In this document: positions 5,334 to 23,784 of the stretch, piece by piece
Numbering within the stretch: position 1 is the stretch's first letter
Layout: each line of letters starts with the position of its first letter
Assembly: GCF_011378715.1 (NCBI RefSeq)
Contig: NZ_WTKU01000004.1
Coordinates: 62,001-126,000, forward strand
Source of the DNA: Psychromonas sp. SA13A
GTDB taxonomy: Bacteria > Pseudomonadota > Gammaproteobacteria > Enterobacterales > Psychromonadaceae
Length of the DNA: 64,000 nucleotides
Direction: 5' to 3'
Notes under the pieces: generated by a model
The model's input: only the letters and a program-made list of their open reading frames with translations
The model's database searches: none
Told to the model about the DNA's origin: nothing
Translations under genes and position numbers: made by a program

Positions 5334-5900
5334 ATGCCTAAGGCAAGTGATATCAAAAAAAATACAGCTGTTGAATTTAACAACAGTGTTTACATTATCA
5401 AAGACATTGAACGTTCAGTACCTCAGGGGCGTGCAGGTGGTAGTTTATACCGCATGCGTATGTACGATGTAGTATCTGGCGCAAAAACCGACGAAACGTT
5501 TAAAGACAGCGATATGTTAACACTGGCTGACTTAATTCGTCGTAATGTTGTGTTTTCATACCTTGATGGTGATGAGTTAGTATTCATGGATAATGAAGAC
5601 TACACACCATACAACTTAAACAAAGAAAGCATAGCTGATGAAGTTTTGTTTATTGATGAAAATACACAGGGCCTACAAGTGGTTATAGTTGATGGCGCAC
5701 CGGTAGGTGTTGAATTACCTGCCAGTGTTGATTTAACTATCGTAGAAACAGACCCATCAATCAAAGGCGGTTCTGCGACTGCACGTACTAAACCAGCTAT
5801 TTTATCTACTGGTTTAACCGTACAAGTACCTGAACATATCTCTACTGGTGATAAAATACGTGTGAACACTGCCGAGAAGAAATTTATGGGGCGTGCATAA
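5334..5900 (+). CDS. efpL: Elongation factor P-like protein EfpL (YeiP)
   Basis: EfpL is a paralogue of EF-P that binds the ribosome between the P and E sites and relieves stalling at proline-containing motifs. The 188 residues show the three-barrel EF-P layout: a KOW-like N-domain (1-65), an OB domain containing [12 protein letters not shown], and a C-terminal OB domain ending KFMGRA as in E. coli YeiP. The loop that reaches the peptidyl-transferase centre reads VPQGRAGGS and places Arg33 at the tip, the residue used by EfpL instead of the modified Lys of EF-P. The start is supported by AAGGAAA upstream and it lies 23 bp after tusE. Confidence 0.93.
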
Positions 5901-15554: not shown

Positions 15555-16988
15555 TTATTTTTTGTAATTGCGCGGGAAGATAATCACAACTTCCAACCCA
15601 CCCTGCTCACGATTGATCAGATGTAAATCACCATTATGAGCATGAATAATATTACGCGCAATACCCAGTCCAAGTCCATGTCCTTGGTCATCATTATGCA
15701 AGCGCTTATAGGGTTGAAAGATGGTTTTTAGTTCATGTTCTGGAATACCAGGCCCATTATCTTGAATAATAATTTCTAATTTTTCATCACTGTCAATCAC
15801 TTGCACATTAACCTTGCCGCCATATTTAACGCCATTTTCAATTAGGTTAGATAAGCAACGTTTTAACGCTAAAGGTTTGCCTTGATAAGGAGAAATACTA
15901 GCCGGTTGGATCACGATTTTTTCACTACGATTTTCACTAATTTGTAATAATAACTTAAGCACATCAACATACTGAATATTTTCATGAATATCTGTGTCTT
16001 GAACGCTTTGTATCGCGCCTTTTACCAGTATCTCTAAATCGTCTAAATCATGGTTAAAGCGCTCTGTTTGTTGCTCATCATCTAATAATTCGGCACGCAA
16101 TCGCAAACGAGTAATGGGCGTTTTTAAATCATGTGAAATAGAGCGAAATAACAATTCGCGATCTTGTATGTAACGTTGTAACTTTTGTTGCATACGATTA
16201 AAAGCACGTGTTGCATCAACGATTTCGGTGGCCCCGTGTTCCTTAAGTGGCGCTTGGTCTAGGTCAATACTCATTACAGAGACAGCCTTCGCTAATTTCT
16301 GTAAGGGTTTAGTTTGTTGCCTAAATAATAAATAGATAAATAACAATAATAATAATGTTGTAAAGAACAGGGTCAAAATCTGTTGCGCTGAGATCAACTG
16401 ATTATCCGAAAGTAAATAAGGGGGAGGTAAAATCGCGGCAAGATATAGCCACTCATTACTTTCTACTTCTATTTGCAACACCAATATAGGAGGCTCAGCA
16501 GTAGGGATAATGAGCGAATAAGCGCCCCATGACGGAGGCAGATCCTTTAATAGGATATCATTCTTTAATACGTGTAAATCATCTGGAGACGAGAATTCAA
16601 TTTCCAAATTCTTATCACCAGCGATACCCGTTGTTAATACTTCACTAACGGTTGCAATGACTTGCCTTTTCAATTTGCTATCTTGAATAGGATTAATGTC
16701 TATTTTTTCACTGTTCAGAGAAACAAAAAAACGACTCCCTCCCATGCCCCGCAATTGCTCGAGCACAAGATGACGATATTTAAGGGGTAAATCATTAAAA
16801 AATACGACGGTACTTAGCGCACTTTCAGCGAGATGTTGAGCATTAGCAATCACCGATTTTTTTTCACTCTCTGAGAACTGATGAACCCAAAAAAAGCTGC
16901 TAATAGCTTGCCCTGCGACAACAGAGCAAATCGTCAGTAATAACATGCGCGATATAAGTGAGCGAAAAAACAATTTAAACATCGACAT
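15555..16988 (-). CDS. Sensor histidine kinase (EnvZ/GtrS-like)
   Basis: A membrane-bound kinase of 477 residues: membrane segment 1 at about 13-33, a periplasmic domain of about 170 residues, membrane segment 2 at about 203-223, HAMP (about 224-275), a HisKA domain with the phosphoacceptor His286 (RSISHDLKTP), and an ATPase domain with N box (SNLIENGVKYGG), G1 (DNGPGIP) and G2 (GHGLGLGIARN). The periplasmic domain has no motif I can name. The start overlaps the response regulator stop by one base, so the two are translationally coupled, and the binding-protein gene follows about 70 bp later. The set resembles GltR-GtrS beside the glucose-binding protein in Pseudomonas; that parallel is an inference. 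Confidence 0.92.
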   Translation of the reverse strand: MSMFKLFFRSLISRMLLLTICSVVAGQAISSFFWVHQFSESEKKSVIANAQHLAESALSTVVFFNDLPLKYRHLVLEQLRGMGGSRFFVSLNSEKIDINPIQDSKLKRQVIATVSEVLTTGIAGDKNLEIEFSSPDDLHVLKNDILLKDLPPSWGAYSLIIPTAEPPILVLQIEVESNEWLYLAAILPPPYLLSDNQLISAQQILTLFFTTLLLLLFIYLLFRQQTKPLQKLAKAVSVMSIDLDQAPLKEHGATEIVDATRAFNRMQQKLQRYIQDRELLFRSISHDLKTPITRLRLRAELLDDEQQTERFNHDLDDLEILVKGAIQSVQDTDIHENIQYVDVLKLLLQISENRSEKIVIQPASISPYQGKPLALKRCLSNLIENGVKYGGKVNVQVIDSDEKLEIIIQDNGPGIPEHELKTIFQPYKRLHNDDQGHGLGLGIARNIIHAHNGDLHLINREQGGLEVVIIFPRNYKK

Positions 16989-17722
16989 TAATCAGCACTT
17001 TTGAGCGGTGCAATAAATAGATAACCTTTACCACGCACGGTTTTAATTATATTCGGAGCTTTGGCATCATCACCTAAAAAATGTCGTAAACGACTGACAT
17101 GAACATCAATGCCACGCTCATTAGCAAAGGCATCTCGACCATGTAATGCTTGGCATATTTGGTCTCTAGAAATAGGCTGCTTGTTACTGTGAATAAATAA
17201 CATTAACAATTGAAAGTCCGCCCCAGTTAATGTGAATACATTTTGATGATCATCTATTAGCACTTGCTGTTGTGTATCTAATTGCCAATGAGCAAAAGAA
17301 TAAAAACGCTTACTTTCTTGATTTTTTTGCTCATTATTTTGTTGTTGAGAAAAATGAGTGCGTCTTAATAACGCTTTAATACGTGCTAACAATTCGCGAG
17401 GACTAAAAGGCTTGGCAATATAATCATCAGCACCGATCTCTAAACCTAATACTCTATCCATTTCATCGGAGTTTGCTGTGAGCATTATAATCGGTACATT
17501 CGAATGCTGACGGATGCGTTGACACAGCGTAAATCCGTCATCACCTGGTAACATAATATCTAAAATAATTAAGTCTGGTGTATGTTGTGTTAATAACGAA
17601 TCCATTTCAATGCCTTCCGCAGCGGTGATCACATCAAAGCTATTTTTCGAAAGGTACTGTGCTAATAATTCTCTAATATCTTGATCATCATCAACGACTA
17701 ATATCTGTTTTATGTTACTCAC
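16988..17722 (-). CDS. OmpR-family response regulator
   Basis: The receiver domain (1-120) has the acidic pocket VVDDDQD, the phosphorylated Asp55 in LIILDIMLP, and the conserved Lys in IAKPFSPRE. The C-terminal winged helix (about 145-240) ends RGKGYLFIAP, as in OmpR/PhoB-type DNA-binding domains. I start at the GTG at 17722 (244 residues) because a GGGGG tract sits just upstream; the TTG at 17734 would overlap that tract. It is the first gene of a minus-strand unit with the kinase and the sugar-binding protein, and is divergent from the norspermidine operon. Its targets are unknown; ptsG, 3 kb away, is an obvious candidate. Confidence 0.93.
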   Translation of the reverse strand: MSNIKQILVVDDDQDIRELLAQYLSKNSFDVITAAEGIEMDSLLTQHTPDLIILDIMLPGDDGFTLCQRIRQHSNVPIIMLTANSDEMDRVLGLEIGADDYIAKPFSPRELLARIKALLRRTHFSQQQNNEQKNQESKRFYSFAHWQLDTQQQVLIDDHQNVFTLTGADFQLLMLFIHSNKQPISRDQICQALHGRDAFANERGIDVHVSRLRHFLGDDAKAPNIIKTVRGKGYLFIAPLKSAD

Positions 17723-17904
17723 TATTACCCCCAATTTATTACTATTTATGTGCGGAGAATACCCAAATAACCCAACATTGGGTAGTGTTAAAGATAGGAA
17801 ACCTCGAGTGCGTTTAAAGTGTTTATTTTTTACACTTTATATAAAAAATATAATTATTAATCAGTATGTTAATAAAAAAGGTTAATTTTAGTTAGTTTTT
17901 ACCC

Positions 17905-17932
17905 TTGCTATAGCAAAAATGGATGATAAAAT
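17905..17932 (+). promoter_or_regulatory. Candidate promoter of the norspermidine operon
   Basis: A -35-like ttgcta (17905-17910) and a -10-like taaaat (17927-17932) are separated by 16 bases. The -35 lies inside a 12-base palindrome, ttgctatagcaa (17905-17916), that could be an operator. Transcription would start near 17940, giving a leader of about 295 nt before dat. Confidence 0.4.
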
Positions 17933-17995
17933 GCGCGCGTTTTAACACTCAACCTATTTTATTATAACGACTAACCAAACACGGAGGCTCAAACA

Positions 17996-18097
17996 ATGCA
18001 ACACACTTACATTGACTCATCTGAACCTTTGAATCGTTATTTTACACCTCAAAATCAATACTTATTACAGTATCCTGGACGCACAGTAGAACCTTGA
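17996..18097 (+). CDS. 33-residue upstream ORF (candidate leader peptide) of the norspermidine operon
   Basis: A short ORF begins with ATG at 17996, preceded by a perfect GGAGG at 17983-17987 with 8-base spacing, the best ribosome binding site in this part of the window. It encodes 33 residues starting MQHTYIDSSEPLNRYF and ending YPGRTVEP before TGA, with no signal or membrane segment. The stop lies 137 bp before the dat start. A nascent chain ending Glu-Pro at a stop codon is known to slow termination, and TnaC, the tryptophanase leader, also ends in Pro-stop. I do not recognise the peptide. Its position, translation signal and ending suggest a regulatory leader, possibly sensing a polyamine. 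That function is an inference; translation itself is likely. Confidence 0.6.
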   Translation: MQHTYIDSSEPLNRYFTPQNQYLLQYPGRTVEP

Positions 18098-18174
18098 GCT
18101 AAGACGCTTAAAATCTTGTAGTGCAACGTATATTCGTAATTAAATTTATTGCTATACCTTATTTACACAATTCT

Positions 18175-18192
18175 GTTTATCTGCTGATAAAC
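18175..18192 (+). promoter_or_regulatory. Hairpin in the dat leader
   Basis: A perfect 7-bp stem (gtttatc / gataaac) with a tgct loop lies between the upstream ORF and dat and is followed by caatttt. It is too weak for a confident terminator but could be part of an attenuator. Confidence 0.35.
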
Positions 18193-18234
18193 CAATTTTC
18201 GTACTTTATTTATTTCCAATTAGTGGAGCGTATA

Positions 18235-19647
18235 ATGCAAAACGTCCTTAATTTAGCACCGGAGTGCAAATTAACAAACGAACTAGAAGTCCCTGTTATT
18301 ACAACACCGTATGACTTAACACCAGATGAAATGTTATTAAGCCAAGAACATTATGAATCTGAAGTTCGTTCATATCCTAGACGTTTACCTATTGCTATCA
18401 AAAGTGGCCGTGGTGCGATTATTGAGGATACTAAAGGACAAATATATCTAGACTGTTTAGCGGGCGCTGGTGCATTACCCTTAGGTTACAACCACAGTGA
18501 AATCAACCAAGTATTGATTAACCAAATCAATGCCGGTGTGCCTTACCAAACATTGGATTTAACAACACCTAGCAAAGATGCATTCATCAAAGCGGTGATG
18601 CAATTTCTACCGACTAACTTTGCTAAAACAGCGCGTATTCAATTTTGTGGACCATCTGGCGCTGATGCAGTAGAAGCCGCTATCAAACTAGCTAAGTTAT
18701 ACACCAAGCGTAATACCATGATTTCATTTCACGGTGCTTACCATGGTATGACTAATGGTTCTTTATCTTTAACGGGTAACTTAAGCTCTAAAAGTCGTCG
18801 CACTGGATTAATGTCAGACGTACATTTTATGCCTTTCCCATACAACTTGCGTTGTAAATTTGGTTTAGGTGGTGAGGAAGGCGCTGCGCAAAGCATTCGT
18901 TATCTTGAATCTGTCTTATGTGATGATGAATCAGGTATCACTAAACCTGCTGCCATCATCGTTGAACCAATTCAAGGTGAAGGTGGCGTATTACCCGCTC
19001 CCAAAAAATGGCTACAAGAATTGCGTCGTATTGCAACTGAACATGGCATTTTATTGATTTTTGACGAAATTCAATGTGGTATTGGCCGCAGTGGTGACCA
19101 CTTTGCGTTTGAAGAATCAGGTATTGAACCTGATGTACTTATCTTGTCTAAAGCCATTGGCGGCGGTATGCCAATGTCGATCATTTTATTTAATGAAAAA
19201 TTTGACTGTTGGAATGCAGGCGAGCACACAGGTACTTTCCGAGGCAACCAACTTGCGATGGCTAGTGGTGCAAAAACATTAGAAATTATTCAACGTGATA
19301 ACCTTGCTCACAATGCATTGCAACGTGGTGAACAACTTCGTGCTGCATTACGTGCAATTCAAGCTGACTTTCCACAAATTGGTGAAGTACGTGGGCGTGG
19401 TTTGATGAATGGTATTGAAATAGTTAAACCGGGTGTATTAAATAGCTTGGGTCAAGCCGAAGCAGATCCAGCATTAGCAATTGCAATTCAACGCGCAGCA
19501 TTAGAGTTAGGTTTGATCATTGAAAAAGGTGGCCGTCGTGGAGCGGTATTACGCTTCTTGCCACCACTTATCATTAGTGAAACGCAAATAGAATTTGTTG
19601 CAACGACAATGGCAAAAGCCATCAAAATTGCGGTGGAAGCACAATAA
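18235..19647 (+). CDS. dat: Diaminobutyrate--2-oxoglutarate aminotransferase
   Basis: This class-III PLP aminotransferase makes L-2,4-diaminobutyrate from aspartate semialdehyde and glutamate, the first committed step to 1,3-diaminopropane and norspermidine. From the ATG at 18235 (GGAG at 18225-18228) it has 470 residues. It shows the cofactor-phosphate motif CGPSGADAVEAA, IFDEIQCGIGRSG, the PLP lysine Lys306 in LSKAIGGGMP and the GEHTGTFRGN substrate-site segment. The frame stays open 38 codons further upstream but lacks a ribosome binding site there. The stop overlaps the ddc start (TAATG), so both are made from one message; in Vibrio I recall the two activities as a single fused protein. 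Confidence 0.93.
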   Translation: MQNVLNLAPECKLTNELEVPVITTPYDLTPDEMLLSQEHYESEVRSYPRRLPIAIKSGRGAIIEDTKGQIYLDCLAGAGALPLGYNHSEINQVLINQINAGVPYQTLDLTTPSKDAFIKAVMQFLPTNFAKTARIQFCGPSGADAVEAAIKLAKLYTKRNTMISFHGAYHGMTNGSLSLTGNLSSKSRRTGLMSDVHFMPFPYNLRCKFGLGGEEGAAQSIRYLESVLCDDESGITKPAAIIVEPIQGEGGVLPAPKKWLQELRRIATEHGILLIFDEIQCGIGRSGDHFAFEESGIEPDVLILSKAIGGGMPMSIILFNEKFDCWNAGEHTGTFRGNQLAMASGAKTLEIIQRDNLAHNALQRGEQLRAALRAIQADFPQIGEVRGRGLMNGIEIVKPGVLNSLGQAEADPALAIAIQRAALELGLIIEKGGRRGAVLRFLPPLIISETQIEFVATTMAKAIKIAVEAQ

Positions 19648-21122
19648 TGACCCAAGCTAATAACTGGTCAAATTATTTCGCTCAGCTTGGTGAAAACCAA
19701 GCTTTTGAGCAAGCGACCCAGCAAACACAAGATGCTATCAATGCCTTGTTTAAGCATTCACAAAATGCATATTCAGGTGTCGAACCTACGTTATTAAAAC
19801 AGCAGATTAATGCGGTGGATTTTTCGCAAGCAGCTCCTTTGCAAGAAGTAATAGCAACCACCAATGAATTGATCGCTAAAAATTCTCTATTAGTGCAACA
19901 TCCTCATACGATTGCACATTTGCATACTCCACCGTTGATTGCATCAATTGTGGCAGAGCATTTTATTGCCGCATTAAATCAATCAATGGACTCATGGGAT
20001 CAAGCTCCCGCTGCGACTTTTGTTGAACAGCAAATGGTTGATTGGTTGTGTAAAACTTACCAATTAGGTGAACGCGCTGATGGTGTATTCACTAGTGGTG
20101 GCACGCAAAGTAATTTAATGGGTTTACTACTGGCTCGCGATTGGTTTGCTTATCAGCAATCAAAACATGATGTTCAGCAGGATGGTTTACCTGATTACGC
20201 ACAGAAAATGCGTATCATCTGTTCAGATAAAAGCCATTTTACTGTACAAAAGTCTGCATCATTAATGGGATTGGGCGAACGCAGTGTGGTGTTAGTTAAA
20301 ACCAATGTGCAAGGCCAAATCGATGTTAATGAATTACAACTAACCATTGATGCATTAAAAGCACAGGATTTGTTACCTTTTGCTGTCGTAGCAATGGCGG
20401 GTACGACGGATCATGGTGCAATTGATGATTTACAAACGGTGGTTGAAATTGCTCGTGCAGCAGGTTGTTGGTCGCATGTCGATGGTGCTTATGGTGCAGC
20501 GCTACAACTTAGCGAAGTACATAAATCTCGTTTGAAAGGTATTGAATCTGCCGACTCTGTCAGCGTAGACTTTCATAAACTATTTTACCAAACAATCAGT
20601 TGTGGTGCCCTGCTTATTAAAGATAAAGCTAACTTTAATACTTTGTTGCACCATGCAGATTATCTAAATCGTGAAGGTGATGAGTTACCTAATTTGGTTG
20701 ATAAAAGCATTGCAACGACAAAGCGTTTTGATGCATTAAAGCTATTTATGACGCTCAAGGCTGTCGGAGCAACACAGCTCGGAGAGTTTTACGATTATTT
20801 ATTAGACTTAACACAGCAAGTTGCAGTAAAAATTGATCAAAATAAGCACTTTGAATTATGTTGTACACCAGTATTATCAACCGTGTTGTTCCGTTTATCG
20901 CCGGTTATACAGGGTGAGTTAACTGATCTGGAATTTGATCAAGTACATCAAAAATTGCGTTTGAAACTATTAACAAGTGGTGAAGCAGTGATTGCTGAAA
21001 CAAAAGTTAATGGGCAATTAGCGTTAAAATTCACACTGTTAAACCCTTGTTTAACCTTGCATGATTTTGATACCTTAATCGTAAAAATAGAAAACGCAAC
21101 GCAAGCGATTATCAAGAAATGA
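19647..21122 (+). CDS. ddc: L-2,4-diaminobutyrate decarboxylase
   Basis: This group-II PLP decarboxylase converts L-2,4-diaminobutyrate to 1,3-diaminopropane. The 491 residues contain the family signature SVSVDFHKLFYQ with the PLP lysine Lys311, the cofactor-binding HVDGAYG with Asp279, and FTSGGTQSNLMGLLLARD. It begins at an ATG sharing one base with the dat stop codon, with no room for an independent ribosome binding site beyond the dat 3' end, so translational coupling is expected. The next gene starts 230 bp later, after hairpins at 21176-21248. Confidence 0.93.
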   Translation: MTQANNWSNYFAQLGENQAFEQATQQTQDAINALFKHSQNAYSGVEPTLLKQQINAVDFSQAAPLQEVIATTNELIAKNSLLVQHPHTIAHLHTPPLIASIVAEHFIAALNQSMDSWDQAPAATFVEQQMVDWLCKTYQLGERADGVFTSGGTQSNLMGLLLARDWFAYQQSKHDVQQDGLPDYAQKMRIICSDKSHFTVQKSASLMGLGERSVVLVKTNVQGQIDVNELQLTIDALKAQDLLPFAVVAMAGTTDHGAIDDLQTVVEIARAAGCWSHVDGAYGAALQLSEVHKSRLKGIESADSVSVDFHKLFYQTISCGALLIKDKANFNTLLHHADYLNREGDELPNLVDKSIATTKRFDALKLFMTLKAVGATQLGEFYDYLLDLTQQVAVKIDQNKHFELCCTPVLSTVLFRLSPVIQGELTDLEFDQVHQKLRLKLLTSGEAVIAETKVNGQLALKFTLLNPCLTLHDFDTLIVKIENATQAIIKK

Positions 21123-21352: not shown

Positions 21353-22573
21353 ATGTCTGTACTACAAATTGGCGCCGGTGGCGTAGGATGGGTGATAGCA
21401 CACAAATGCGCACAGAATAATGATGTATTCGGCGATATTACTATTGCCTCTCGCACTATTTCTAAATGCGAAAAGATTATTACCTCAATCAAAGGTCGTA
21501 ATAATCTTAAAGACAGCAACAAAACTATCAACGCTGTAGCGATTGATGCCGACGATATTTCAGCCTTGATTGCTTTGATTAATCAAGTACAACCCGATCT
21601 AGTGATCAATGCAGGTCCTCCATGGGTGAACGTGGCGATCATGGAAGCATGTGTACAGACTAAAACGGCTTATCTAGATACGTCTGTTGCGACTGATCTT
21701 TGTAGCCCAGGTCAACAAGTGCCTGAAGCATACGATCCACAATGGGCTTTTGCCGATCGTTTCAAAGAAGCTGGTATTACAGGTATTTTAGGTGCTGGGT
21801 TTGATCCAGGTGTAGTAAGTGTATTTGCTACTTACGCTCATAAACACCTATTCGATGAAATCGATAGCATAGATGTTATGGATGTTAATGCAGGCGACCA
21901 TGGCCAAAAATTTGCAACTAATTTTGACCCTGAAACAAATATGTTAGAAATTCAAGGTGACTCTTTCTACTACGAAAATGGAGAATGGAACCAAGTTCCT
22001 TGCCATAGCCGTATGATGGAATTTGATTTCCCAGTTGTCGGTAAACAAAAAGTTTATTCTATGGCACATGATGAAGTACGTTCAATGGCAGAGTTCATTC
22101 CAGCAAAACGTATTGAGTTTTGGATGGGCTTTTCAGACAGCTACTTAAACTTCTTCAACGTAATGCGTACTATCGGCTTATTAGATACAAAACCTGTTAC
22201 AACCTGTGATGGTATTACTGTTGAACCGCTTAAAGTATTAAAAGCAATATTACCAGACCCAACCTCACTAGCACCTGGCTACACAGGTAAAACCTGTATT
22301 GGTACTTGGTTACGCGGTAAAAAAGATGGCGTAGCTAAAAGTGTCTTTATTTACAACATTTGTGACCATAAAGAGTCATATAATGAAGTAGAACACCAAG
22401 CTATCTCGTACACTACTGGTGTGCCAGCTATCACAGCCGCTTTACTTTATTTCCAAGGTAAATGGAGCGATAAAGGTCTATACAACGTTGAACAACTAAA
22501 CCCAGATCATTTCTTAGAATTAATGCCTAAAATTGGTTTGAGTTGGGAAGTAATGGAGCTTGAGGTCAAATAG
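21353..22573 (+). CDS. Carboxynorspermidine dehydrogenase (synthase)
   Basis: This saccharopine-dehydrogenase-like enzyme condenses 1,3-diaminopropane with aspartate semialdehyde and reduces the product with NADPH to carboxynorspermidine (or carboxyspermidine from putrescine). The N-terminus is the dinucleotide-binding LQIGAGGVGWVIAHK, followed by VINAGPPWVNVAIMEACV and GAGFDPGVVSVFA. The 406 residues are close to the roughly 410 of Vibrio enzymes. An AGGGA stands before the ATG. It lies between ddc and nspC, exactly where the pathway requires it. A terminator separates it from nspC. Confidence 0.93.
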   Translation: MSVLQIGAGGVGWVIAHKCAQNNDVFGDITIASRTISKCEKIITSIKGRNNLKDSNKTINAVAIDADDISALIALINQVQPDLVINAGPPWVNVAIMEACVQTKTAYLDTSVATDLCSPGQQVPEAYDPQWAFADRFKEAGITGILGAGFDPGVVSVFATYAHKHLFDEIDSIDVMDVNAGDHGQKFATNFDPETNMLEIQGDSFYYENGEWNQVPCHSRMMEFDFPVVGKQKVYSMAHDEVRSMAEFIPAKRIEFWMGFSDSYLNFFNVMRTIGLLDTKPVTTCDGITVEPLKVLKAILPDPTSLAPGYTGKTCIGTWLRGKKDGVAKSVFIYNICDHKESYNEVEHQAISYTTGVPAITAALLYFQGKWSDKGLYNVEQLNPDHFLELMPKIGLSWEVMELEVK

Positions 22574-22630: not shown

Positions 22631-22656
22631 AATACCTTACCCGTCGAGAAAGCGTC

Positions 22657-23784
22657 ATGTCGTTACAACAGCAACACCTCAATACGCCCTACTTTATGAT
22701 CAATGAACAAGCTTTGATCAATAACCTAGAAAAAGCGAAGCAGTTGAAAGAAATATCAGGCGCTAAATTAGTGCTGGCTTTAAAATGTTTTTCTACTTGG
22801 GGTACCTTCGATACTATTAAACCTTATTTAGACGGAACAACTAGTTCTGGCCCCTACGAAGTAAAGTTAGGCCATGAAACCTTTGGTGGTGAAACGCACG
22901 CCTACAGCGTGGGTTATTCAGCTGCAGATATAGAAGCGGTTAAACCCCTTGCAGATAAGATCATTTTTAATTCGTTATCACAACTTGAAGCGCATTACAC
23001 AGCTTGTAAAGACAATGCATCGCTTGGTTTACGTATCAACCCCGAAATGAGTGTTGCAGGACAAGATTTAGCCAACCCAGCACGCCCTTATTCTCGTCTG
23101 GGCGTTAAACAACAGCTTTTAAGTGTAGATGTACTCGATAAAGTTGATGGGTTTATGTTTCATATGAACTGCGAAAATAAAGATACTGATGCCTTTATTG
23201 CTGTCCTTGACCATATCTCAAGCACATTTTCAACTTACTTAGATAAGCTTTCATGGCTTAGTTTAGGTGGCGGTATATTCTTTACTTACCCGGGTTACCC
23301 CATCGAAAAACTAGGATTAGCGCTAAAAAACTTCGCTAAAAAACATGATTTACAAGTTTATCTTGAACCAGGTGAAGCCATTATTACGCGTACTGCAGAT
23401 TTAGTGGTGAGTGTGATTGATATTGTTGAAAATGACAAGAAAACTGCCATCGTTGATAGTGCTACCGAAGCGCATCGTTTAGATACACTAATTTATAACG
23501 AACCTGCGTCGATTAAAGAAGCAACACAAGGTGCTGCATACAATTATGTGATTGGTTCATGCTCTTGTTTGGCGGGTGATCAGTTTTGTGAAACACAGTT
23601 TGAACAACCCTTAAAAATAGGTCAAAAGCTACATATTGAAGACAGTGCGGGTTACACCATGGTCAAACTAAACTGGTTTAATGGTTTAAAAATGCCAAGT
23701 ATTTATTTTCAAAGAGTTGATGGTCGTATCGATCTGTTAAACGAGTTTAATTACCAACATTTCAAAGATACTTTAGGTCGATAG
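22657..23784 (+). CDS. nspC: Carboxynorspermidine decarboxylase
   Basis: NspC is a PLP enzyme of the alanine racemase/ornithine decarboxylase fold that decarboxylates carboxynorspermidine to norspermidine, or carboxyspermidine to spermidine. From the ATG at 22657 it has 375 residues. The PLP lysine is Lys43 in [10 protein letters not shown], and [15 protein letters not shown] and [11 protein letters not shown] are present. An alternative TTG at 22621 lies inside the terminator stem and is rejected. In Vibrio, NspC output controls biofilm formation. The gene ends the cluster; hairpins follow at 23828-23865 and 23911-23965. Confidence 0.94.

Follow-up and report, generated by a model that had tools for sequence, protein, structure and literature searches.

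The window, the whole analysed stretch of 64,000 nt from the marine bacterium Psychromonas sp. SA13A, carries a norspermidine operon with the gene order dat, ddc, carboxynorspermidine synthase and nspC. It is preceded by a short leader ORF, and the start codon of dat (ATG at 18235) is located 137 nt 3' of the stop codon of this ORF. The features of the locus are as follows:

17905..17932, + strand: probable leader promoter (TTGCTA, 16 nt, TAAAAT with TG, extended -10)
17983..17987, + strand: Shine-Dalgarno sequence GGAGG of the leader ORF, 8 nt ahead of the ATG at 17996
17996..18097, + strand: leader ORF, 33 codons, MQHTYIDSSEPLNRYFTPQNQYLLQYPGRTVEP, ending in Val-Glu-Pro-TGA
18089..18097, + strand: conserved Glu-Pro-UGA (GAACCTTGA), candidate slow-termination site, from 130 distinct leaders
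18094..18111, + strand: tentative small hairpin, whose 5' arm includes the stop codon, from close-clade folds
18175..18192, + strand: hairpin GTTTATC-TGCT-GATAAAC between leader ORF and dat, present in the fold
18225..18228, + strand: Shine-Dalgarno sequence GGAG of dat
18235..19647, + strand: dat, diaminobutyrate--2-oxoglutarate transaminase (TIGR00709, 539.9 bits, cut-off 401.6)
19647..21122, + strand: ddc, L-2,4-diaminobutyrate decarboxylase-like (NF052646, E 1.4e-109, 366.9 bits, under the cut-off of 900)
21353..22573, + strand: carboxynorspermidine synthase (NF043000, 842.7 bits, cut-off 800)
22654..23784, + strand: nspC, carboxynorspermidine decarboxylase (TIGR01047, 484.8 bits, cut-off 409.05)

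The 33-codon ORF, its GGAGG, the Val-Glu-Pro-TGA end and the 137 nt to dat had been described in the initial annotation and were all found in the sequence. Sites like the GGAGG also precede the ORF in most close relatives. Four of the 995 window ORFs of 15-60 codons end in Glu-Pro-stop, the leader ORF among them. One Glu-Pro-stop alone is thus unremarkable, and the evidence lies in its recurrence in 130 distinct leaders. EfpL, suggested earlier as a factor that might bear on a stall at this site, is encoded at 5334-5900 of the window (NF003392, 315.7 bits, cut-off 216); the gene is confirmed, and nothing was found that ties EfpL to the leader. An OmpR/EnvZ-like two-component pair at 15555-17734 (best NCBIfam matches, under cut-off) is divergent from the operon, and ORFs resembling this pair are also located upstream in two other loci (L030 and L034).

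The previously proposed leader of about 295 nt depends on the promoter at 17905-17932. At the level of single hits, the promoter pattern occurs as often as expected by chance (7 sites vs. 7.0 expected). Its core TG[A/C]TA[A/G]AATGCG is found upstream of the ORF in 16/16 Psychromonas leaders inspected (13 via the pattern, 3 by eye from the same output), and this recurrence supports the leader length. The hairpin at 18175-18192 forms in the fold as had been described, with 22 of 200 shuffles of the stretch folding equally well or better. Near this place, a hairpin of at least 7 pairs with partly different letters is present in 9/9 close-clade leaders (a count without shuffle control); its L030 version sits slightly further on. 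The stop codon of the ORF is paired in 7/7 close-clade leaders, with differing arms and a mean z of only -0.6 (mononucleotide shuffles). A further element between ORF and dat, at about 18148-18166 of the window (TTGCTATACCTTATTTA), is kept in 7/9 close-clade leaders by pattern and is recognisable by eye in several Vibrio leaders. The C-over-G bias that had been noted for the gap to dat is present as a slight excess (22 C vs. 18 G), but it is weak and not outside what 26 control upstream regions show. It is the leader ORF itself that is C-rich (25 C, 12 G), its best 78-nt stretch ranking by C-richness in the top 0.8% of the windows sampled.

Recurrence of Glu-Pro-stop upstream of dat

A search of 60 relatives with the leader peptide gave full-length matches in 10 genomes, one of them the peptide's own, at 67-100% identity and E ≤8.5e-8. 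An identical peptide is encoded at the locus of P. arctica DSM 14288 (L033), whose Dat is also the closest to that of the window (97%). A search with Dat placed a frame ending in Glu-Pro-TGA upstream of dat in 72/74 loci; the remaining two (L061 and L100) are cut at a contig end and have no upstream DNA. TIGR00709 was matched across 394 genomes of the order, and 60 upstream regions were picked from these hits for a second draw. Here, the Glu-Pro-stop frame is present in 12/14 Psychromonas regions, in 4/4 regions of the sister family f12, whose leaders end in Pro-Glu-Pro, and in 24/24 Vibrionaceae regions with a fused dat-ddc. The two Psychromonas misses are L144 (genome G017), a dat leader without a Glu-Pro-stop ORF, and L145, a second dat copy. 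In L143 (G004), the Glu-Pro-TGA frame is kept, but without ATG, GTG or TTG in frame. The third draw covered 9 of the 11 Vibrionaceae genera in which Dat was matched and yielded Glu-Pro-stop in 38/38 regions; together with the second draw, this amounts to 62/62 Vibrionaceae operon regions. The draws overlap, as 13/40 and 2/38 motif-bearing leaders repeat earlier ones, including four from Psychromonas.

All draws comprise 151 leaders, 130 of them distinct over 120 nt; redundancy was removed by exact 120-nt identity only, so that close species are counted separately. Conservation of the ORF and of its C-terminal Glu-Pro-stop in relatives, on which the initial annotation had made its proposal depend, is found in these 130 distinct leaders. 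The frame ahead of Glu-Pro-stop stays open over ≥24 codons in 151/151 leaders. Among the distinct leaders, the stop codon is TGA in 129 and TAA in one (L231, genome G762, the sole leader with Glu-Pro-TAA). Residue -3 is Thr in 117, Val in 9 and Pro in 4 of them; Glu is encoded by GAA (87) or GAG (43), and Pro by CCT (119), CCG (7) or CCC (4). Counting every Pro-stop ORF in these upstream regions, Glu-Pro is the final dipeptide in 150, and ten other dipeptides account for the remaining 15. Since the later draws were screened for any Pro-stop, Glu is a finding and not built in.

No Glu-Pro-stop frame was found before dat in the families f2 (0/6), f18 (0/4), f9 (0/3), f27 (0/2), f76 (0/3) and f16 (0/2, one region partly masked), where dat is not necessarily orthologous to the leader-bearing dat. 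The same holds for a different dat copy of one Vibrionaceae genome (0/1).

Selection on the peptide

In 12 tails from distant Psychromonas, Thr precedes Glu-Pro-stop in 12/12 cases, encoded with three Thr, two Glu and three Pro codons, and residues -4 to -10 are unrelated, so that only Thr-Glu-Pro-UGA is retained. That this end is kept while its codons vary points to selection on the peptide. In the last 7 codons of the Vibrionaceae leaders, mismatch rates at codon positions 1, 2 and 3 are 0.17, 0.12 and 0.50, and codons with a single difference are synonymous in 1083 cases vs. 256 that are not (counted over pairs of related sequences, which are not independent). The last 12 codons of the close clade have no synonymous excess (31 synonymous, 41 not). 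Between clades, the shared part is Thr/Val/Pro-Glu-Pro-UGA alone; the remaining sequence is unrelated, and no residue upstream of -3 is shared from one clade to another (last 11 codons; full peptides compared by eye).

The ORF has its own Shine-Dalgarno sequence and probably its own promoter, as would suit a small protein that acts in trans. We consider such a protein extremely improbable, given that the sequences are unrelated between clades save for the last three residues.

Slippage at NNN-UGA with polyamine stimulation exists in antizyme. On this precedent, a polyamine-stimulated +1 frameshift at CCU-UGA, antizyme- or prfB-like, could give a longer product. However, the frame offset between the stop codon and dat is random (34, 29 and 28 of 91), the +1 frame enters dat in 6/91 only, and 12 of the +1 peptides inspected by eye have no common sequence. 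Fusion to dat was rejected on these counts, and a frameshift of this kind has hardly a chance of being correct.

A further explanation keeps the pause and makes it generic: Glu-Pro-UGA would gauge release capacity (the level of RF2, EF-P/EfpL, tmRNA), and polyamines would act on termination indirectly. It agrees with three residues and a stop codon being all that the clades have in common, without a tunnel motif, and with TGA in 129/130 leaders, which points to RF2. Pausing at Pro-stop without a ligand is also described in excerpts of two publications (PMC3985003, PMC13410324). On the other side, no second clear Thr-Glu-Pro-TGA case was recognised in the part of the matches examined in three scanned genomes. 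We regard a generic pause as unlikely, though far from negligible.

In these three genomes, Thr-Glu-Pro-TGA occurs 4 (window genome), 6 (G005) and 14 times (G144) vs. 9, 9 and 13 times for the reversed pattern, and a genome-wide Thr-Glu-Pro-stop regulon is unsupported by these counts. Two of the 24 matches are dat leaders (L200 and L205); the others were judged by open length and next ORF alone, without gene context. In three of the matches, the frame is open over 20 (L199), 57 (L212) and 47 codons (L214) and is followed by an ORF. One spaced Glu-Pro-stop pattern gave no matches, but its spacing would miss the known leader too.

RNA elements around the leader ORF

In Vibrionaceae, the stretch upstream of the ORF is conserved and corresponds to the Rfam cis-regulatory RNA RF02951 (DABA-DC-AT), reportedly an unsolved candidate out of a 2017 motif survey. 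No openly licensed PMC paper naming DABA-DC-AT was found. RF02951 lies above its gathering score in 6/9 Vibrionaceae loci of a first set, and in 2/6 Vibrionaceae and 0/9 Psychromonas or f12 loci of a second set. At E ≤0.5, it is found in 6/6 Vibrionaceae loci (one above the gathering score, five below) and in 0/2 others. No match above cut-off was obtained in 24 Psychromonas genomes, and no match in four f12 genomes; five Psychromonas genomes contain weak sub-threshold matches away from dat. Positions 17500-18500 of the window have no match at E ≤5, and G000 has none at E ≤1. With covariance-model searches returning no match above cut-off, the presence of RF02951 in Psychromonas or f12 was rejected. 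As these groups keep the ORF without RF02951, the peptide is the wider element. Upstream of one Vibrio norspermidine leader, a tRNA run and group II intron matches are located (L043:430-2477).

RF02951 ends at the start region of the ORF in Vibrionaceae leaders (e.g. L041:2571-2725), and the last 20 positions of its model, ending in GGGAAACCCAACA, are unpaired. Judging from the sequence, this conserved tail probably supplies the leader ORF with its Shine-Dalgarno sequence and spacer. In 120/122 leaders, the tail is followed within at most 2 bases by a start codon that shares the frame of Glu-Pro-stop (TTG 86, GTG 21, ATG 13). The two exceptions are L220, which has three extra bases, and the Vibrionaceae leader L225, where Glu-Pro-TGA occurs twice (its ends lying 318 and 137 nt ahead of the dat match) and the script took a second triplet. 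An in-frame ATG further upstream is also present in 86 of the 120, often the ATG of ATGGGAAACCC within the RF02951 tail, so that no Vibrionaceae start can be called certain, and those of the 34 leaders lacking such an ATG have the best support. RF02951 probably sets how often the leader ORF is translated in Vibrionaceae.

On the downstream side, CCUUGA (the Pro codon and stop) is computed to pair with UCAAGG at the dat Shine-Dalgarno sequence in core Vibrio. When 43 Vibrio leaders are folded as a consensus, from a gappy alignment, no other helix is present. With G-U pairs allowed, the last 6 nt of the ORF pair 6/6 with the dat Shine-Dalgarno region in 57/113 Vibrionaceae leaders (42/91 distinct) vs. 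7.3 on average and at most 26 at other offsets, based on dat starts assigned by script, some of which look wrong. In 74 Vibrio leaders, a ribosome mask at the stop codon frees the dat Shine-Dalgarno sequence by 1.79 kcal/mol on average (>1 in 41/74), and control masks by 0.36 kcal/mol (>1 in 35/222). Relief of >1 kcal/mol from the stop mask was found in 0/19 Psychromonas and 0/3 f12 leaders. Masking of the Shine-Dalgarno sequence by the stop-codon letters was also rejected for the window, where the value goes from 6.01 to 5.87 kcal/mol, which is no relief. Since relief is absent in Psychromonas and f12, no single output mechanism applies to all groups.

The excess of 6/6 pairing and the sole consensus helix would also fit a reading in which the conserved letters are an RNA element, with CCUUGA as anti-Shine-Dalgarno sequence for dat and the peptide irrelevant. 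Yet Glu-Pro-UGA is kept in groups where the last 6 nt do not pair with the dat Shine-Dalgarno sequence (pairing in 0/7 and 2/12 Psychromonas and 0/3 f12 leaders), and an exact complement between ORF and dat is present in only 1/23 leaders of other Vibrionaceae genera. Moreover, distant Psychromonas use CCG, CCT or CCC for Pro, and Glu is not part of the helix. A pure RNA element is therefore very unlikely. The C/G ratio in the 60 nt after the stop codon is 2.1 in distant Psychromonas, 2.0 in f12, 1.5 in the close clade and 1.28 in Vibrio. By analogy with tna, the C-rich RNA after the stop codon in Psychromonas and f12 may suit Rho.

Proposed mechanism and comparison with known leaders

Given its Glu-Pro-stop end, the leader sequence probably encodes a translation-based switch for polyamine synthesis. 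In our preferred reading, to which we assign a probability of about 0.75, it is a TnaC-like cis-acting peptide that pauses RF2-dependent termination and serves as a signal-tuned operon switch via RNA masking. The only conserved working part of the peptide would be its end, Thr/Val/Pro-Glu-Pro followed by UGA. We infer that the ORF is translated and that RF2 acts slowly once Pro occupies the P site and UGA the A site, which leaves the ribosome parked on the stop codon. According to excerpts of the respective papers, Glu-Pro-stop stalls termination in E. coli (PMC13410324) and favours tmRNA tagging (PMC3985003). The parking time would report a pathway signal. The likeliest such signal is the amount of a polyamine or of an intermediate, with norspermidine, spermidine, 1,3-diaminopropane and diaminobutyrate as candidates. 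As no tunnel motif is common to the clades, the sensing of a specific ligand is less certain.

The parked ribosome would mask RNA and in this way turn the operon on. It would cover CCUUGA in core Vibrio and thereby free the dat Shine-Dalgarno sequence UCAAGG; in Psychromonas and f12, where this pairing is missing, the RNA covered may be a C-rich stretch that Rho could use. The Vibrio geometry is what suggests that a pause corresponds to the on state, and end-product control would then mean slow release when the polyamine is scarce. In Vibrionaceae, RF02951 would additionally tune the translation frequency of the ORF from its position at the start region.

A reduced form of this mechanism is put forward tentatively, and we lean somewhat against it. 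Here, Glu-Pro-UGA alone would be a minimal polyamine sensor and RF02951 would gate its initiation, which makes a two-input switch. The Glu side chain near the peptidyl-transferase centre, Pro and the waiting RF2 would form a polyamine-responsive release site, at which the polyamine cation alters release with no tunnel motif required. RF02951, an RNA confined to Vibrionaceae among the genomes searched, would then not be a stand-alone dat riboswitch.

For the TnaC-like switch, a close comparison is the tna leader peptide of E. coli. As described in parts of PMC8429421, TnaC holds Pro in the P site at UGA and keeps RF2 inactive, the stalled ribosome masks a Rho site, and Trp12, Asp16, Ile19 and Pro24 are required. 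The dat leader resembles TnaC as a short leader peptide with a Pro-UGA end, present in 129/130 distinct leaders. In contrast, tunnel residues of the Trp12/Asp16 type at a fixed distance from Pro are absent from it, and the dat operon is biosynthetic whereas the tna operon is catabolic. SpeFL, the ornithine-sensing leader of speF, is likewise a termination-arrest leader in polyamine metabolism, arrest being a prediction for the dat leader. It has RF1-mediated release and an N-terminal sensor domain, as stated in the same excerpts (PMC8429421). The dat leader differs in its UGA stop codon, in the downstream gene and in having no N-terminal sequence common to the clades; the absence of a SpeFL sensor domain was judged from this clade comparison.

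MdtU, the leader of mdtJI (spermidine exporter), is similar in size, distance to the gene, polyamine link and C-terminal conservation. Excerpts of PMC7815308 describe 34 codons, a stop codon 106 nt before the gene, an involvement of spermidine and Rho, and the C-terminus as the most conserved part. E. coli MdtU ends in QHWRNAL-TAG, not in Glu-Pro-UGA, and controls export. With this end, and with dat as the gene here, the two were rejected as the same peptide. By analogy, the dat leader would work like TnaC and MdtU, yet belong to neither. RF02951 is found at the same operon in Vibrionaceae, where its conserved 3' tail borders on the leader ORF and probably serves as its ribosome-binding site. 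RF02951 differs in being an RNA structure, with no match in the four f12 genomes and none above cut-off in the 24 Psychromonas genomes, which are from groups that keep the ORF. The spermidine riboswitch (a SAM-I variant), which answers to polyamines including norspermidine in bacteria, is a polyamine-linked RNA element as well, but an RNA aptamer without a peptide; V. cholerae is said to be without it (excerpts of PMC10853860).

No description of a Glu-Pro-stop dat leader was found in the openly licensed PMC literature, among the matches listed (titles and abstract starts). If the proposed mechanism is true, it would add to the bacterial leader peptides of polyamine synthesis one that has just three residues and a stop codon in common between clades, far more compact than TnaC or SpeFL, and the target of RF02951 would be the translation start of the leader ORF. 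In V. cholerae, norspermidine is described as a biofilm and lysis signal (excerpts of PMC10914755), so that the leader switch would bear on a known signalling system.
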